This document shows positions 7,988-32,836 of a stretch of DNA of 48,368 bases, in pieces. A program made the position numbers and the translations under genes. Source of the stretch: a virus; the IMG/VR virus record IMGVR_UViG_3300013132_000077, positions 1-48,368 of that record; one strand, 5' to 3'. The notes beneath the pieces are model-generated. The model saw nothing but the letters and a program-made list of their open reading frames with translations, did not search any database and had not been told where the DNA came from. The stretch's first letter is position 1. Each line of letters begins with the position of its first letter.

Positions 7988-9031
7988 TTATTTCAGTATT
8001 GTCGTGACCATCTTTTCCACTATGAGATATGGATCTCCATTGGATGCTGGCCTTCTGTCTTCTATGTATCCTATTGAATCTGGATCCTGTATCGTCGATG
8101 GTATTCTTATCGATTTTGTCCTGTCTCCTATTCCCCATCCGAATTTTTCTATCGATGATGTCTCGTTGGCTCCTGTCAGTCTGGCCTCGTTGTTCTTCCC
8201 ATACACTTCGATGTGCTCAGCGTGCTTCTCTCCTAGCTTTTCGCACATCTCTATCGCTATCATCATCTTGTTGAGCTTGTCTTCTCTTATTGTTTTTGTG
8301 GAAAAATTCACATGCATTCCAGAGCCGTTCCATTCGTTTCCTGCGAATGGCTTTGGATCTAGCTCTATTCTGTATCCATATTTCTCGCTCAATCTGTGCA
8401 GTATGTATCTTGATATCCAAAGCTGGTCGGCACCTTCTTCCGCTGTGACCGTTCCTACTTGGTATTCCCATTGTCCTAGAGCTACTTCCGCGTTTATTCC
8501 GGATATCGATATTCCTGCGGATATGCAGAGGTCTGCATGTTCCTCTACGAATTCTCTTCCAGCGACGTTGTTCGATCCCACTGAGCAATAGTATTCTCCC
8601 TGTTCTCTCGGGCTTCCTTTTTCTGGCCATCCTATCGGCTTTTTGGTCTTTTGGTCGAATATGAAGTATTCCTGTTCCCATCCCCACATCGTCTCGTCGT
8701 CGTATTTGGATAGAGCATCCACCATCTTTTTTCTGGTGTTGCTCTCGTGTGCCGTTCCGTCGGTGTTGAATACCTCGCACAGAACCAATATCGAATCTTT
8801 CGCGAAAGGATTCATAAAGTAGTTTTTCGGAATTAGCGCGAGCTCTGATTTTGAAGTCTCTGCTTGATATGTCGAAGATCCGTCGAAGTTCCATATGGGT
8901 GCCTTCTTCTTCTTTGACTTGTATTGCTTTAGCAGTCTTTTAGTTTCCGTGTCGCAGTCTATTATCTTTGTCTTTGATCTCAGCTGTTGGGTTTCGCATC
9001 CGTCTAGCCATATGTATTCCAGCTTCTTCAT
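7988..9031 (-). CDS. glnII: Type II (eukaryote-like) glutamine synthetase
   Basis: 347 residues, full length for GSII (about 350-370). It makes glutamine from glutamate, ammonia and ATP. Signature blocks are in order: WNFDGSST (47-54), SELALIPKNYFMNPF, GWEQEY (117-122, with metal-binding Glu119 and Glu121), GINAEVALGQWEYQVG (178-193), NGSGMHVNFST (235-245, ATP site), ARLTGANET (283-291), SIRIP (307-311) and EDRRPASNGDPY (324-335). All expected active-site residues that I can place are present, so it is probably active. It may raise glutamine for nucleotide synthesis or change host nitrogen control. It is probably co-transcribed with the small gene at 9049. Confidence 0.93.
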   Translation of the reverse strand: MKKLEYIWLDGCETQQLRSKTKIIDCDTETKRLLKQYKSKKKKAPIWNFDGSSTYQAETSKSELALIPKNYFMNPFAKDSILVLCEVFNTDGTAHESNTRKKMVDALSKYDDETMWGWEQEYFIFDQKTKKPIGWPEKGSPREQGEYYCSVGSNNVAGREFVEEHADLCISAGISISGINAEVALGQWEYQVGTVTAEEGADQLWISRYILHRLSEKYGYRIELDPKPFAGNEWNGSGMHVNFSTKTIREDKLNKMMIAIEMCEKLGEKHAEHIEVYGKNNEARLTGANETSSIEKFGWGIGDRTKSIRIPSTIQDPDSIGYIEDRRPASNGDPYLIVEKMVTTILK

Positions 9032-15080: not shown

Positions 15081-16964
15081 TTAGAATCTAGTGAAGTTGA
15101 TCTGCTTCTTTTCCAAGTCTACCGACTTGACTACTACTTTGATAGGATCTCCAAGCCTTATCTGGTTTCCAGAGGCGTCGTATGCCAAATATCTGTCTGC
15201 GTCCGCTGTCCACTTTCCTTCGAGAGTCTCTATCCTTATCAGTCCTTCGCATTTGCTTTCCACGATTTCCGCGTAGATTCCTCTGTCGAGAACTCCGGTT
15301 ACTATAGCGTCGAAGACCTTCCCTATCTTGTCCTGTAGATATTCTGCCTGCTTGTACTTTATAGAGTCTCTCTGTGCTTTCGCCGCGATTAGCTCTCTGC
15401 TTGAGCACCATTTTGCCTGCTCTTCTATCTTTCCTGGATTTCCCTGCTTTCCGCTAGTCAGCTTGTCGAAAAGAATCCTGTGCGTTATAAGGTCTGGATA
15501 TCTCCTTATAGGAGATGTGAAGTGCGAGTAGTGTGTGAATCCCAGTCCGTAGTGTCCTATGTTCTTTATCGTGTATACCGCCTTTGACATGCATCTGGTA
15601 ACCAAAGTCTCTATCATGTTTTCTTCAGGAGTTCCTTTTATGTCCATTATGAGCTTGTTCAGGTTCTTTTTCAGCTGATCGCCTTCTTCCGATATCTCGA
15701 ATCCATATCCGAAGTTTTCGCATACTCCTTTTAGAGAAGCCAGCTTTTCCTCGTTTGGCTTGTCATGTACTCTATATACGTTGTGCCATTGGTCTCTAGC
15801 GAGAAGCTTGGCCACTGATTTGTTCGCCAATAGCATGTATTCTTCGATGAGCTTGTTGGCCTCTTTCTGCTCTTTGAAATAGACTCCTATTGGCTTTTTG
15901 TTGTCTTCTGCCAGCTTGAACTTAACTTCTATTCCGCCCATTTCTATAGATCCGTTTTTTATTCTAGCTTTTCTTATCCTTCGTGCCAGCCTGTCCAGCT
16001 CTCTTATCTCTTTGGAGTATTCTCCTTCCGATCCTTCTATTATGTCCTGTGCTTCTTCGTAGGTGAATCTCCTGTCGGAATGTATGATTGTTTTCCCATG
16101 CCACTCCTTCTTTGTCTTGCCTTCTTTGTCTAAGGTGAAGACCACCGAGAAAGCGAGCCTGTCCACGTTTGGCTTGAGCGAGCATATTCCGTTCGATAGC
16201 CTTTCCGGTAGCATCGGTACGCATCTGTCTACCAGATAGACGGATGTCGCCCTTCTGTATGCTTCTTTGTCGAGCTCTGTACCGAACTTGACATAGTGCG
16301 CGACGTCTGCTATGTGAACGCCCACATGTATATTGTCCGGGTCTCTCATGTCTATAGATATGGCGTCGTCGAAGTCCTTGGCGTCTACCGGATCTATAGT
16401 TATGGTAGTCACGCTTCTCATGTCTCTTCTGGATGCTATCTCCTTTTCGGTGATCACTTCTGGGACCATCTCGGATTCGTTGAGGACTTCCTGAGGGAAA
16501 TCCACTGGAAGGCCGTATTCGTACATTATGGCGTTCATCTCCGCGTTGTTCTCTCCTATCTCTCCCAATATCTTCTTTATCTCTCCTCTAGGAGACTTCT
16601 TTTCTGGGTTCCAGTCTATGAATCTGACCACTACTTTCTGTCCGTCTTTGGCATCATGTTCTCCTTTTATGTAGAAGTCTGCCGATATCCTTGGATTGTC
16701 CGCTATGACGAATGTGGTTTCTCCGTTCTTTTGAACCGTTCCTACAAACTCGGACCTGAATCTTTCCTTCACTTCCACCACTTTGGCCTCTAGCTTTTTA
16801 GGCCCTTTGAATATTTCAGCGGTCACTATATCCATATGCAGCGCGTTCAGCGTCTTTTTTCTGTGTATGAATATTTCCTTTCCTTCTGATTTTATGGTGG
16901 CGTTTCCTGACGACGTGAATTCTATCTGCGCGTCTATCCTGTCGCCCTCTTTTATTTTATTCAT
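15081..16964 (-). CDS. rnr: RNase R family 3'-5' exoribonuclease
   Basis: 627 residues. An N-terminal cold-shock-like part (to about 130) is followed by the RNB catalytic domain with TIDPVDAKDFDDAIS (189-203). Asp191, 197, 199 and 200 match the metal-binding acids of RNase II/R. Later come VHIADVAHYVKFGTELDKEA, SVYLVDRCVPMLPERLSNG and the HYSHFTSPIRRYPDL block. The C-terminal S1 domain begins at GKVFDAIVTGVLDRGIYAEI. It degrades RNA processively, including structured RNA. It is shorter than E. coli RNase R (813), lacking the Lys-rich tail and the N-terminal HTH. Bacterial RNase R degrades non-stop mRNA during trans-translation, and this phage also carries tmRNA. Confidence 0.93.
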   Translation of the reverse strand: MNKIKEGDRIDAQIEFTSSGNATIKSEGKEIFIHRKKTLNALHMDIVTAEIFKGPKKLEAKVVEVKERFRSEFVGTVQKNGETTFVIADNPRISADFYIKGEHDAKDGQKVVVRFIDWNPEKKSPRGEIKKILGEIGENNAEMNAIMYEYGLPVDFPQEVLNESEMVPEVITEKEIASRRDMRSVTTITIDPVDAKDFDDAISIDMRDPDNIHVGVHIADVAHYVKFGTELDKEAYRRATSVYLVDRCVPMLPERLSNGICSLKPNVDRLAFSVVFTLDKEGKTKKEWHGKTIIHSDRRFTYEEAQDIIEGSEGEYSKEIRELDRLARRIRKARIKNGSIEMGGIEVKFKLAEDNKKPIGVYFKEQKEANKLIEEYMLLANKSVAKLLARDQWHNVYRVHDKPNEEKLASLKGVCENFGYGFEISEEGDQLKKNLNKLIMDIKGTPEENMIETLVTRCMSKAVYTIKNIGHYGLGFTHYSHFTSPIRRYPDLITHRILFDKLTSGKQGNPGKIEEQAKWCSSRELIAAKAQRDSIKYKQAEYLQDKIGKVFDAIVTGVLDRGIYAEIVESKCEGLIRIETLEGKWTADADRYLAYDASGNQIRLGDPIKVVVKSVDLEKKQINFTRF

Positions 16965-23348: not shown

Positions 23349-23744
23349 ATGAAAATCAAGAGATATGATAGATATATAGCAGAAGAGTCCGAATGGGATG
23401 ACGAATATCCATATGACGACGCCCAAGAAGAAGATGAAGATGAAGAAGAAGACGACGATGTGGCGCAGCATCTTCTTTATCTTTTGAGGTCCTATCTTTC
23501 CAAGGCGGGCATAAAGAACGCCGATGTCAGAGGAAACGCCGATGTCATAAAGATGGAGATAACTATGTCCAAAAAGGAGAATATGGCGGCCGTCATATCC
23601 ACTTTCGCGACTCTCAGAAAGATATCTGAAGAGATATTGCCGGACTACGACTGCGAGTTCGACATATGGAAGAACAAGAAGGGCGAGCCTCTGCTGATAC
23701 TCGACTTCTATTCCGAAGACGCTATGTCCGACGATGTTTTTTGA
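23349..23744 (+). CDS. Acidic protein with a leader-like N-terminus
   Basis: 131 residues. MKIKRYDRYIAEESEW resembles the T4 capsid-targeting leader (basic, aromatic, then E). It is followed by a very acidic run (YDDAQEEDEDEEEDDDVAQ) and a small alpha/beta domain. No motif is recognised. It starts 15 bases after the peptidase and is probably co-transcribed. After its stop comes the tmRNA promoter region. Confidence 0.65.
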   Translation: MKIKRYDRYIAEESEWDDEYPYDDAQEEDEDEEEDDDVAQHLLYLLRSYLSKAGIKNADVRGNADVIKMEITMSKKENMAAVISTFATLRKISEEILPDYDCEFDIWKNKKGEPLLILDFYSEDAMSDDVF

Positions 23745-23784: not shown

Positions 23785-23792
23785 TATCTTTG
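23785..23792 (+). promoter_or_regulatory. TATCTTTG promoter element of the tmRNA
   Basis: Fits TAnnTTTG and ends 23 bases before the first base of the mature tmRNA, leaving room for a short 5' leader that RNase P would remove. Confidence 0.55.
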
Positions 23793-23815: not shown

Positions 23816-24180
23816 GGGGGTGTCATAGATTCGCCTAGCAGAGTAGCGATGATTATGCAGGTATCGGGTGGCTGAATGTCCGATTTACAAATTAGGCGGC
23901 AAACGTTGTAAATGGCAACACAAATGAAGTAGGAACCCGTGAAGATCTAGTAGCGGCCCTAAAGTCAATCGGAGCTAACACTCCAGAGCTGGTTTAAGAG
24001 AGCAGCTTCAAAAAAAATTCTCCGCCTGTATCGCGCAGTCCAAATGCGAAAACCGTTCTGCGGATTCTTGGGTCAAGATCCGATATTTTGAGAGTTTAGA
24101 AAAACGTCTCTAAGCCTGTAAACGAATAATTGTTGGTAGCTGATTAGTACATGCCGGGCAGTGCGGCATCACCTCCACTA
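23816..24180 (+). ncRNA. ssrA: Transfer-messenger RNA (tmRNA)
   Basis: 365 bases, the usual tmRNA size (E. coli 363). The 5' end GGGGGTG pairs with CACCTCC near the 3' end (24170-24176), giving a 7-bp acceptor stem with the G3-U wobble that makes alanyl-tRNA synthetase charge it. GATTCG follows at 23829, as in most tmRNAs. The 3' end is ACTA (CCA not encoded). The bases before it (AAGCCTGTAAACGAATAATTG) resemble the conserved 3' part. The resume codon is probably GGC at 23914, 98 bases from the 5' end. The tag frame is unusually long (27 codons). The T loop is GGCAGTG instead of the usual TTC-type loop. A terminator follows. It rescues stalled ribosomes with SmpB; no smpB is in the window. 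Confidence 0.85.
23914..23997 (+). other. tmRNA tag-peptide reading frame
   Basis: From GGC the frame codes GNTNEVGTRED onward, passes LVAALKSI, and ends GANTPELV before TAA (27 residues). Normal tags have 8-15 residues and end in LAA. If one C of the run at 23957-23959 were absent, the tag would be 15 residues and end DLVAA before TAA. An alternative start at GGA (23971) would give GANTPELV, but it is too far from the 5' end. Confidence 0.55.
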
Positions 24181-24214: not shown

Positions 24215-24511
24215 ATGAGCAGGCATTCCAACAAACATTGGCTGAGAGAGAAGGAATACTATATTTTGAAGAAGATATACTATGACCTCTACTATACGCA
24301 TTCTTCCGCTGCCGAGTCAGAGATGAATAGCCGCCTTCGTCGAAAGTTCTGGAACGAGTTCTGCGGATACTTCAACACCGCTCCTAAGAAATACAGAAAG
24401 CAGCTCAACCGCCGCCAGCGCGCGAAGGCCAAGCAGGTCCTTCACGATATAATGCGCGGAAAGGAAAGGCCGTTCGAGGACAACTATCGAGACTGCAGTT
24501 GGTATTGGTAA
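24215..24511 (+). CDS. Small basic protein, unknown
   Basis: 98 residues, strongly basic and aromatic (REKEYYILKKIYYDLYYTHS, then KKYRKQLNRRQRAKAKQVLH), so nucleic-acid binding is likely. Its ATG follows directly on the T-run of the tmRNA terminator, so read-through, or a start within the terminator tail, is needed for its expression. SmpB is also a small basic protein, but its motifs are absent here. Confidence 0.6.
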   Translation: MSRHSNKHWLREKEYYILKKIYYDLYYTHSSAAESEMNSRLRRKFWNEFCGYFNTAPKKYRKQLNRRQRAKAKQVLHDIMRGKERPFEDNYRDCSWYW

Positions 24512-24542: not shown

Positions 24543-25070
24543 ATGATAATAGACAGATTCGAAGGAAGATGGAGGTTTCTTTCCAATTTCCATCCGTGTG
24601 AAGTAGAGCATCAGGGAATAACATATCCTTCGGTGGAGCACTACTATGTCGCCATGAAGTGCAACAACGAGCAGATGCTCTATGGGAGGCACTATACCAT
24701 AGGAGACTTTCGCGAGATGATCGCCAACACTCCAAGTCCTGCATTAGTCAAGTCTATAGGGCAGAAGATGAAAGTAAGAAAAGACTGGGATGAGAAAAAG
24801 CTCGAGTTCATGCTATATGGAGTGAGAGAGAAATTTAAAGATCCTGACTTAAAAGAACTTTTGTTGAGTACCGAAGATTTTTCTTTAGTTGAATCGAATG
24901 ATTGGAATGATAAATTCTGGGGCGTGTGTCAAGGAAAAGGGTTAAACCATTTAGGCAGGATACTGATGAAGGTCAGAAAGGAAATCTCGGAAGAGCAGTC
25001 GTTGCCTTATCAGGAAGATAGGCCAGCGTCGCTTGAGGATTTTTTCAGACAGGCTGGACAGGCAAAATAG
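24543..25070 (+). CDS. NADAR-family N-glycosidase (YbiA/DUF1768)
   Basis: 175 residues. It has the NADAR signature: RWRFLSNFHPCEVEHQGITY, then YPSVEHYYVAMK and the final WGVCQGKGLNHLGRILMKVR. Family members cut N-glycosidic bonds, acting on riboflavin-pathway intermediates or removing ADP-ribose from guanine bases. A phage copy may therefore undo ADP-ribosylation by host defence. The segment 24830-24955 is visibly more AT-rich than the rest of the gene, like a recombination patch. The next gene starts 2 bases after its stop. Confidence 0.85.
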   Translation: MIIDRFEGRWRFLSNFHPCEVEHQGITYPSVEHYYVAMKCNNEQMLYGRHYTIGDFREMIANTPSPALVKSIGQKMKVRKDWDEKKLEFMLYGVREKFKDPDLKELLLSTEDFSLVESNDWNDKFWGVCQGKGLNHLGRILMKVRKEISEEQSLPYQEDRPASLEDFFRQAGQAK

Positions 25071-30577: not shown

Positions 30578-32836
30578 CTATTGGAAGTATAGAGTGCATG
30601 CGAATCTTATGGCGGTCGCGGTTCCTGTTGGGTTCGCGGGCATTGTGGATATGTCCGCGGTGTTTGTTATTCCAAACGCGATGTCCGATATTCCCACGTC
30701 GTATACGGTCCTCCATGATGTTCCTGCGGGATAGTGTCCTACTACTATATCTTCTCCCGCTGTTAGACTAAGGCTTTGTCCAGGCGACGCTGTCAGGTTT
30801 ATCACGTTTGGTCCTATTCCGCAAAGCGCGCTTCCTTGTCCTATAAGAGTTTTCGTTCCTGTTAGAGTTCCTCTGTATATTCCAAAAATTACCGTGTCTG
30901 ATCCTGAGAATCCCCACAACTTTGCTTTGTTTATGGTTCCAGTCACTTCCGATATTGTTTGATAGTAGTATTGCGTCGTCGCCGCAGTCGGGGCGCTATC
31001 GCATGCCGATACGCTCATCGGGGAAAAGCATATTCCATTTGATATTCCTGAAGTTCCTGAAGATCCATCGATTCCGCTCGTTCCTGAAGTTCCGTTCTTT
31101 CCAGAGGTTCCTGAAGTTCCGCTTGTTCCGGAGATTCCAGAAGTTCCATTGATTCCAGAAGTTCCTGAAGTTCCGCTTGTTCCTGAAGTTCCGCTTGTTC
31201 CGGAGATTCCTGAAGTTCCATCGATTCCAGAAGTTCCTGAGGATCCATCACCTCCAGTTGGTCCCAACTGTGTGTACATTACTTGTGTGAAAGTCGATAT
31301 AACGCTTGGTGTTGCTGGATGTTCCGGATTTATACCTGATGGTAAATATTCTATTGAAACATTTGTGCTATCGCTGTGCCACCATAGTTCTACATAGTCG
31401 TTATGGTTAATTGATGTTCCTACATAATTAACGGTTGCGACGGTATATCCAAACTCTGTGGAGTTTTTTCTAGCAGGCACGTGAAATCTCGTGGTGCTGT
31501 TTGGATAATCAGAACCATTATATTTTAACCAAATATCGGCATAGTGAATTTCATTATCAATATTTTTCAATTGAATAGAATATATCATTGTATAAGTTCC
31601 AGGATTGCTTATTACAATTGATCCAGTTCCAATTATTGAAAATCCTGATGATCCTAAATCTGTATTTATAGCGACTATTTGCGTTTGGCCGGGTGCTAAG
31701 AATGGTTGATCAGTCGTATCTGCGAAATTTCCATAATATCCCAAAGCTCCGCCTGCACCATTAATTCCAGATGTCCCAGAAGTCCCGTCGATTCCAGATG
31801 TTCCAGAAGTCCCGTCGATTCCTGAAGTCCCGGAGGTCCCGTCGATTCCTGAAGTCCCAGAAATCCCTGAAGTCCCAGAGGTTCCGTCGATTCCAGATGT
31901 CCCAGAAATCCCGTCGATTCCAGATGTCCCAGAAGTCCCGTCGATTCCTGAAGTTCCAGAAGTCCCGTCGATTCCTGAAGTCCCAGATGTTCCAGAAGTC
32001 CCGTCGATTCCTGAAGTCCCAGAGGTTCCGTCGATTCCAGAAGTCCCAGAAGTTCCAGATGTGCCGTCGATTCCAGAAGTCCCAGAGGTTCCGTCGATTC
32101 CTGAAGTCCCAGAAATCCCTGAAGTCCCAGAAATCCCTGAAGTTCCAGAAATCCCTGAAGTTCCAGAAATCCCTGAAGTTCCAGAAATCCCTGAAGTTCC
32201 AGAAGTCCCAGAGGTTCCGTCGATTCCTGAAGTCCCAGAAATCCCTGAAGTCCCAGAAATCCCTGAAGTCCCAGAAATCCCTGAAGTTCCAGAAATCCCT
32301 GAAGTTCCAGAAGTCCCAGAGGTTCCGTCGATTCCAGATGTTCCAGAAGTCCCGTCGATTCCAGAAGTCCCAGAAGTCCCAGAAATCCCTGAAGTCCCAG
32401 AAATCCCAGAGGTTCCGTCGATTCCCGAAGTTCCAGAAGTCCCAGAAGTCCCGTCGATTCCAGATTTCCCAGAAGTCCCAGAAGTCCCGGATGACCCAGA
32501 TTTCCCTATTAGCATTTTTTGCCAATGTGTTGAGTCTTCTTCTGGCGATTGCCATGGCGATGATCCTTCTAATGTCTTTATATTAAGATATGCGGATTCG
32601 TTATATGTGACCAGGTCATAATAGAAATACATCATCATAGAATCCCATTCTCCTTGGAATACTATCGAGTTTCCTTGTGGGCCGGTCGGGCCCTGTGGTC
32701 CTATCGATGCTGTTCCGATTCCAATTTCTAGAAGGTTTCCAAATCCGTCATAGTATGTGTTTGGATTTCCAAGAACGACCTGCACGAGTCTCCCATAGGT
32801 TTGCGAGGCGGTAGATCCAGTAAGATTGTAGCTCAT
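30578..32836 (-). CDS. Collagen-like tail fibre or adhesin with GTSG repeats
   Basis: 752 residues. An N-terminal domain (1-110) includes a short GPQGPTGPQG collagen piece and a CBM5/12-like pattern (YYDLVTYNESAYLNIKTLEG). A long G-x-x repeat of GTSG/GIDG/GISG follows (about 111-357). Then come a jelly-roll-like domain (FSIIGTGSIVISNPGTYTMI...), a second repeat block (about 525-600) and a C-terminal domain with FSPMSVSACDSAPT. Trimeric collagen-like shafts with knobs are usual in host-binding fibres. Ser and Thr make up close to half of the repeat positions, an unusual density of possible O-glycosylation sites. Divergent late-type motifs lie just upstream. Confidence 0.85.
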   Translation of the reverse strand: MSYNLTGSTASQTYGRLVQVVLGNPNTYYDGFGNLLEIGIGTASIGPQGPTGPQGNSIVFQGEWDSMMMYFYYDLVTYNESAYLNIKTLEGSSPWQSPEEDSTHWQKMLIGKSGSSGTSGTSGKSGIDGTSGTSGTSGIDGTSGISGTSGISGTSGTSGIDGTSGTSGIDGTSGTSGTSGISGTSGISGTSGISGTSGISGTSGIDGTSGTSGTSGISGTSGISGTSGISGTSGISGTSGISGTSGIDGTSGTSGIDGTSGTSGTSGIDGTSGTSGIDGTSGTSGTSGIDGTSGTSGIDGTSGTSGIDGISGTSGIDGTSGTSGISGTSGIDGTSGTSGIDGTSGTSGIDGTSGTSGINGAGGALGYYGNFADTTDQPFLAPGQTQIVAINTDLGSSGFSIIGTGSIVISNPGTYTMIYSIQLKNIDNEIHYADIWLKYNGSDYPNSTTRFHVPARKNSTEFGYTVATVNYVGTSINHNDYVELWWHSDSTNVSIEYLPSGINPEHPATPSVISTFTQVMYTQLGPTGGDGSSGTSGIDGTSGISGTSGTSGTSGTSGTSGINGTSGISGTSGTSGTSGKNGTSGTSGIDGSSGTSGISNGICFSPMSVSACDSAPTAATTQYYYQTISEVTGTINKAKLWGFSGSDTVIFGIYRGTLTGTKTLIGQGSALCGIGPNVINLTASPGQSLSLTAGEDIVVGHYPAGTSWRTVYDVGISDIAFGITNTADISTMPANPTGTATAIRFACTLYFQ
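31765..32506 (-). repeat. Long collagen-coding tandem repeat
   Basis: 9-bp-based repeats (plus strand GAAGTTCCA, GAAATCCCT, GTCGATTCC) over about 740 bp. Longer blocks recur with few changes, for instance around 32100-32300, a sign of recent expansion. A second, shorter block is at 31040-31255. Confidence 0.9.

Follow-up and report, generated by a model that had tools for sequence, protein, structure and literature searches.

A 48,368-nt stretch of viral DNA (IMG/VR record IMGVR_UViG_3300013132_000077, positions 1 to 48,368; here called the window) appears to carry at 23816-24180 a functional one-piece tmRNA gene, ssrA, of a megaphage probably infecting Bacteroidota, a reading to which we assign a probability of about 0.87 from sequence comparison. 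The RNA departs from bacterial tmRNA in the loop of its T-arm, and it is the replacement of this loop in a functional-looking tmRNA that appears to be new; phage tmRNAs and the SmpB of huge phages are already known.

The locus and its relatives

The megaphage of which the window is a 48-kb fragment belongs to the Mahaphage size class and is related to LR745206 (635 kb) and LR756502 (642 kb). These are the sole phage records that match most of the ssrA locus, with 68-73% identity over the aligned parts, and the DNA flanking the locus in the window is also common to both. The gene content of the window includes a T4-type portal, a Gp23-type capsid protein, and NADAR, methylase and sugar-transferase genes. 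A NADAR-domain protein is encoded closely downstream of ssrA (24543-25067), a glutamine synthetase-like gene lies on the minus strand at 7988-9031, and a collagen-like triple-helix repeat protein (30581-32836) is found near the sugar-transferase genes.

An earlier note had placed ssrA at the present coordinates, in a 470-bp gap and followed by a terminator. All three points are borne out: the preceding open reading frame ends at 23744 and the next starts at 24215, the stem-loop behind the gene is confirmed, and the RNA itself is recognized by covariance model, by family profile and by covariation (Table 1). The covariance search with RF00023 that the note had proposed is significant and full length (at relaxed thresholds, positions 1-374 of the 374 in the model align to exactly 23816-24180, E 3.6e-12 in a 491-base search), but its 34.2 bits fall below the gathering score of 47 bits, so that the window gives no match when scanned with Rfam at the curated cut-offs. 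The match stays under the cut-off because the T-loop is not canonical. ARAGORN likewise reported no tmRNA in the window, and it did detect E. coli ssrA as a control. An nhmmer profile built without the window matches the ssrA locus at E 3e-82 and no other place in the window significantly, and this match is therefore far beyond chance. Folding energy alone is not significant for the locus (z -0.75); the evidence for a tmRNA is comparative. The GATTCG that the note had seen near the 5' end is present at 23828-23833 and is not conserved at that spot: its equivalent is GAATCG in the nearest relatives and a GATTYG 3 nt downstream in most members.

The family was collected by scanning IMG/VR for sequence patterns, three lying beyond the T-arm and one within it, and filtering the matches with a nucleotide profile; it comprises 102 loci with 62 distinct full-length sequences. 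Many matches to TTATGCAGGTATCGG were unrelated coding DNA and were removed by the profile. Two large contigs (L217 and L222, 294 and 129 kb) showed the CUAAGCCUGUGAAUGAAUA stretch only; these are perhaps further diverged ssrA genes that the profile missed. ARAGORN detects just two of the 102 loci (L275 and L278), and among the member loci scanned only L275 (74.6 bits) and L289 (58 bits) reach the Rfam cut-off. A bacterial origin was also considered, and when 84,980 genomes of bacteria and archaea were scanned with a pattern, the profile showed the matches to be due to chance only. Four whole large records searched with RF00023 gave short tRNA-like matches, none above the cut-off. In a 735-kb phage (L266; LR756501, 718250-718900), a tmRNA-like match of 21 bits with a UAAAU-GGC resume motif is directly continued by a group I intron (51 bits) close to where the T-loop would be expected; introns in the tmRNA T-loop are known from bacteria (PMC11915505).

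The motif TAnnTTTG, the Bacteroidota -7 consensus, lies upstream of the gene in 31 of the 44 distinct regions compared across the family, versus 2.7 expected (shuffled mean). This frequency fits a Bacteroidota host, which we regard as probable. No sigma-70 promoter was found on the plus strand just upstream of ssrA; the host-type promoter of the earlier note thus survives as the Bacteroidota element TATCTTTG and not as a sigma-70-like one. For its own genomes above 634 kb, the Mahaphage paper predicts Bacteroidetes hosts (PMC7162821).

Table 1. Features of the ssrA locus and the RNase R gene in the window
Feature	Position	Strand	Evidence
ssrA gene, one-piece tmRNA, 365 nt including 3' ACUA	23816..24180	+	RF00023 full-length match, nhmmer family profile, covariation
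Promoter -7 element TATCTTTG, Bacteroidota type TAnnTTTG	23785..23792	+	31/44 upstream regions
Acceptor stem, 5' strand GGGGGUG	23816..23822	+	7/7 pairs with 24170-24176
P2 long helix, 5' strand	23849..23862	+	pairs with 24114-24133
PK1 pseudoknot	23863..23904	+	S1 23863-23867/23880-23884; S2 23868-23874/about 23897-23904
Resume signal UAAAU, A at -4	23909..23913	+	UAAAY before tag codon, 48/48 members
Tag frame GNTNEVGTREDLVAALKSIGANTPELV and stop TAA	23914..23997	+	open in 48/48 members
Second pseudoknot	24026..24049	+	S1 24026-24028/24036-24038; S2 24031-24034/24046-24049
P2 long helix, 3' strand, starts within CUAAGCCUGU	24114..24133	+	covariation
T-arm, 5-bp stem AUGCC/GGCAU, non-canonical loop GGGCAGUGC at 24156-24164	24151..24169	+	covariation; loop tabulation
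Acceptor stem, 3' strand CACCUCC, and discriminator A 24177	24170..24177	+	pairing
Intrinsic terminator stem-loop	24182..24205	+	terminator confirmed
RNase R	15081..16964	-	Pfam RNB, CSD2, S1; NCBIfam TIGR02063 equivalog

Pairing and the tag reading frame

The proposed structure of 46 pairs (acceptor, P2, PK1, second pseudoknot and T-stem) was evaluated on an alignment of 31 members. Across these, 95.6% of cells are paired, a percentage that is biased because the pairs were chosen by inspecting the same sequences and because rows misaligned at the 5' end or having a different T-arm were left out of the alignment. Compensatory changes are the stronger evidence, and changes on both sides are seen in 22 of the 46 pairs; the covariation score is 0.299 versus 0.163 in shuffles (reached in 0 of 500) and at most 0.097 with the partners slid. 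The 7-bp acceptor stem with the alanine identity pair proposed in the earlier note is present, the third pair being G3-U70 in the window and G3-U in each of the 31 homologs aligned; compensatory changes occur at pair 5. CCA is not encoded in the window, where CUA follows the discriminator A; relatives have CAA, CUA or CCA. In P2, the 14 pairs are formed in 96-100% of cells, 3 of them with compensatory changes, and the 3' strand holds the position of CUAAGCAUGU in the Rfam consensus. Both pseudoknots are supported by covariation. In PK1, 2 pairs of S1 and 5 of S2 are compensatory, with S2 paired in 77% of cells, its outer pairs partly broken and weak in the window; in the second pseudoknot, 6 of 7 pairs are compensatory and 97-100% of cells are paired.

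The tag of the window begins at the GGC resume codon at 23914 and is 27 aa long. Over 48 members the tag spans 27-30 codons, always directly after UAAAY, and the frame is constrained (pN 0.17 vs pS 0.31), the other two frames being stop-rich. The start codon is independently checked by L275 and L278, which were recruited through the tag, carry the canonical T-loop UUCGAAU and are both called tmRNA by ARAGORN: the tag that it reports, GNTNEVASKEELVFALRNNQLKVNEVASVA, starts at a codon homologous to the tag start of the window. A start at 23899 (ANVVNGN...) was rejected on the grounds that the spacing between AAATTA and the frame is not constant (variation of 0, 1 or 2 nt), that UAAAY before the tag codon is fixed in all 48 members and that ARAGORN uses this latter codon in L275. 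No significant homology of the tag to other phage proteins was found, only the two megaphage ssrA loci being matched.

It is conceivable, if on balance improbable, that the RNA rescues ribosomes with a tag that is not a degradation signal, tagged proteins being spared or sent to another receptor; this would refine the reading as a functional tmRNA and does not exclude it. Consistent with such a role, the tag is long, with most of its residues conserved, its ends (e.g., -ELV, -MTV) differ in all members from the bacterial -ALAA, and the ClpX zinc-finger domain was not found in four large relatives. However, the tags of related megaphages, as read from the sequence, end A-rich or hydrophobic (AVA, ASVA, ...MAA in Lak and ...MAVAA in LR756504), ClpP homologs are encoded in four of four large relatives, and the host has its own ClpXP.

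Partner genes and the altered T-loop

In bacterial trans-translation, alanyl-tmRNA and SmpB are needed and RNase R clears the broken mRNA (PMC3968760). Each of the six family records that reach 385 kb has an smpB gene, and the SmpB of LR745206 matches solved SmpB structures by sequence over nearly its whole length. The gene was absent from the smaller family fragments tested, including the 48-kb window, and the phage of the window is linked to SmpB by analogy with its large relatives. In four records (L237 to L240), smpB lies in a conserved neighbourhood with sigma factor-like and thioredoxin-like genes, as read from the sequence; the block also holds a long open reading frame, in two of the four a ClpP homolog, and in L240 a reading frame after smpB that is possibly a homing endonuclease. 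RNase R is encoded in the window itself (634 bits with TIGR02063, cut-off 598), and an RNB-domain protein is present in 9 of the 11 family records searched, the window included. The window protein stops right after the S1 domain and is devoid of the lysine-rich tail, which in E. coli recruits RNase R to tmRNA-SmpB (PMC3968760). Alanyl-tRNA synthetase (AlaRS) was not found in three of the four large relatives, LR745206 showing a partial match (368019-368801, an AlaRS-like open reading frame of 292 aa), so that the host enzyme is likely to do the charging.

That every large relative has SmpB, and the window an RNase R, favours a rescue system supplied by the phage. Judging from gene content, the phage would provide the RNA, SmpB and the nuclease and borrow AlaRS and EF-Tu. 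The host AlaRS might charge the phage tmRNA, which the phage's own SmpB would deliver to ribosomes stalled on broken mRNA; translation would then switch to the GGC codon, adding the 27-aa tag, and the phage-encoded RNase R would remove the broken mRNA. Such a function, which we infer from sequence, could keep ribosomes usable in infection while mRNA and host RNA undergo degradation.

The T-loop ranks with the best conserved parts of both tmRNA and tRNA and is an anchor for standard finders; it is also part of the elbow held by SmpB and the site of two modifications. In the family the T-stem is normal, with 4 compensatory pairs in the 31-member alignment, while the loop in most members is GGGCRGURC or a close variant in place of UUCRANN. 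The first and last bases of the loop (G and C) are invariant in 31 of 31 members and may add a sixth pair to the stem, which would leave a loop of 7 nt. The loop of the window lacks the canonical U54, U55 and A58. Among 79 loci matched by a motif outside the T-arm, six have UUCG-type loops, namely, UUCGAAU (2), UUCGAU (1) and UUCGUC (3); other loops in the family include AGUCGGAG (L289) and AGGCAGAG, and LR756504 has UGUCGUAA. In the same megaphages, 25 of 28 tRNAs checked keep UUCRA, and the change is therefore not a general drift of phage RNAs. Since homologous loci bear both UUCG-type and other loops, the loop has been altered within one lineage, perhaps more than once, the probable starting point being a canonical loop of the UUCGAAU kind, as a few homologs retain. 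A tree built with the T-arm left out is consistent with a change inside the lineage; when rooted, it puts LR756504 deep within the family on a very long branch, a placement that we do not trust.

In E. coli, the T-loop of tmRNA contains two modified uridines, and SmpB binding requires contacts between the D-loop and the T-loop (PMC3968760). The missing U54, U55 and A58 therefore tell against the functional reading, as do the ARAGORN and Rfam outcomes for the window, the unencoded CCA, the weak outer S2 pairs of PK1 and the lack of smpB on the fragment. A bolder and rather doubtful extension of the functional reading is that the megaphages run an orthogonal trans-translation, in which a T-loop rebuilt without the uridines that carry m5U54 and pseudouridine 55 would be specific to the phage SmpB and outside host control, and the tag, long and conserved, would route stalled products to a fate that the phage chooses and not to host ClpXP.

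The altered T-loop could also be read as the mark of a tmRNA-derived decoy or inhibitor, which would retain its tRNA-like shape, bind SmpB or AlaRS without rescue and block trans-translation in the host; phage DS6A, with its TLD-only RNA, offers a precedent (PMC4131195, PMC11915505). We consider this very improbable: a decoy needs no tag frame, whereas here the frame is open in all 48 members checked, constrained and preceded by a fixed resume motif, two conserved pseudoknots are present, and SmpB and, in most cases, RNase R are encoded by the phages as well. Less probable still is a decaying pseudogene that lost its T-loop through drift, for although the loop departs from the bacterial consensus and differs among members, the replacement is itself conserved in most of them, compensatory changes maintain the T-stem and none of the members checked has an interrupted tag frame.

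For a functional tmRNA, the loop series within one family (UUCGAAU, UUCGAU, UUCGUC, GGGCRGURC) suggests that the T-loop is replaceable, and it makes testable what the T-loop is needed for. Likewise, surveys based on ARAGORN undercount ssrA in the largest phages, and the about a hundred family sequences can be used for better tmRNA models.

Relation to known tmRNAs

The statement of the earlier note that tmRNA genes are rare in phages was partly right: a 2022 survey of 18,146 phage genomes by ARAGORN detected ssrA in about 2.3% (PMC9004378). For huge phages, tmRNA and SmpB had been described before, in work that likewise used ARAGORN (PMC7162821). The tmRNA database of 2025, with 97,179 sequences, was built largely from ARAGORN and BLASTN results, with inspection in addition (PMC11915505). 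In the limited literature that we searched, we came across no tag-bearing tmRNA whose T-loop is replaced, and no conserved tag of 27-30 aa.

The RNA resembles the bacterial one-piece tmRNA (RF00023) in its G3-U acceptor, P2, PK1, resume A at -4 and tag frame, and also in the CUAAGC(A/C)UGU strand, the further pseudoknot and its length. It differs in the loop (GGGCAGUGC vs UUCRANN), in that CCA is not encoded, in its score under the Rfam cut-off and in the tag of 27 aa compared with the commonest 10 aa (PMC11915505). We do not count the UUCRANN loop as defining a tmRNA, given that clear homologs which pass as tmRNA share all else.

With the tmRNA and SmpB of huge phages (PMC7162821) and Lak phages, the family shares the phage size class and SmpB, and Lak tmRNAs likewise have UAAAU before the tag. 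As close DNA relatives, the Lak tmRNAs gave no significant match. The two Lak tmRNAs examined keep UUCGACU and UUCGAGU and reach the Rfam cut-off, whereas the window family stays below it and almost entirely escapes ARAGORN, the finder used for the huge phages. The DS6A RNA is phage-encoded and tmRNA-derived like that of the window, but is without a tag domain, which the window RNA has complete. L275 and L278 (IMG/VR) have a homologous RNA and tag (GNTNEVASKEELVFALRNN...) and differ from the window by their canonical T-loop.
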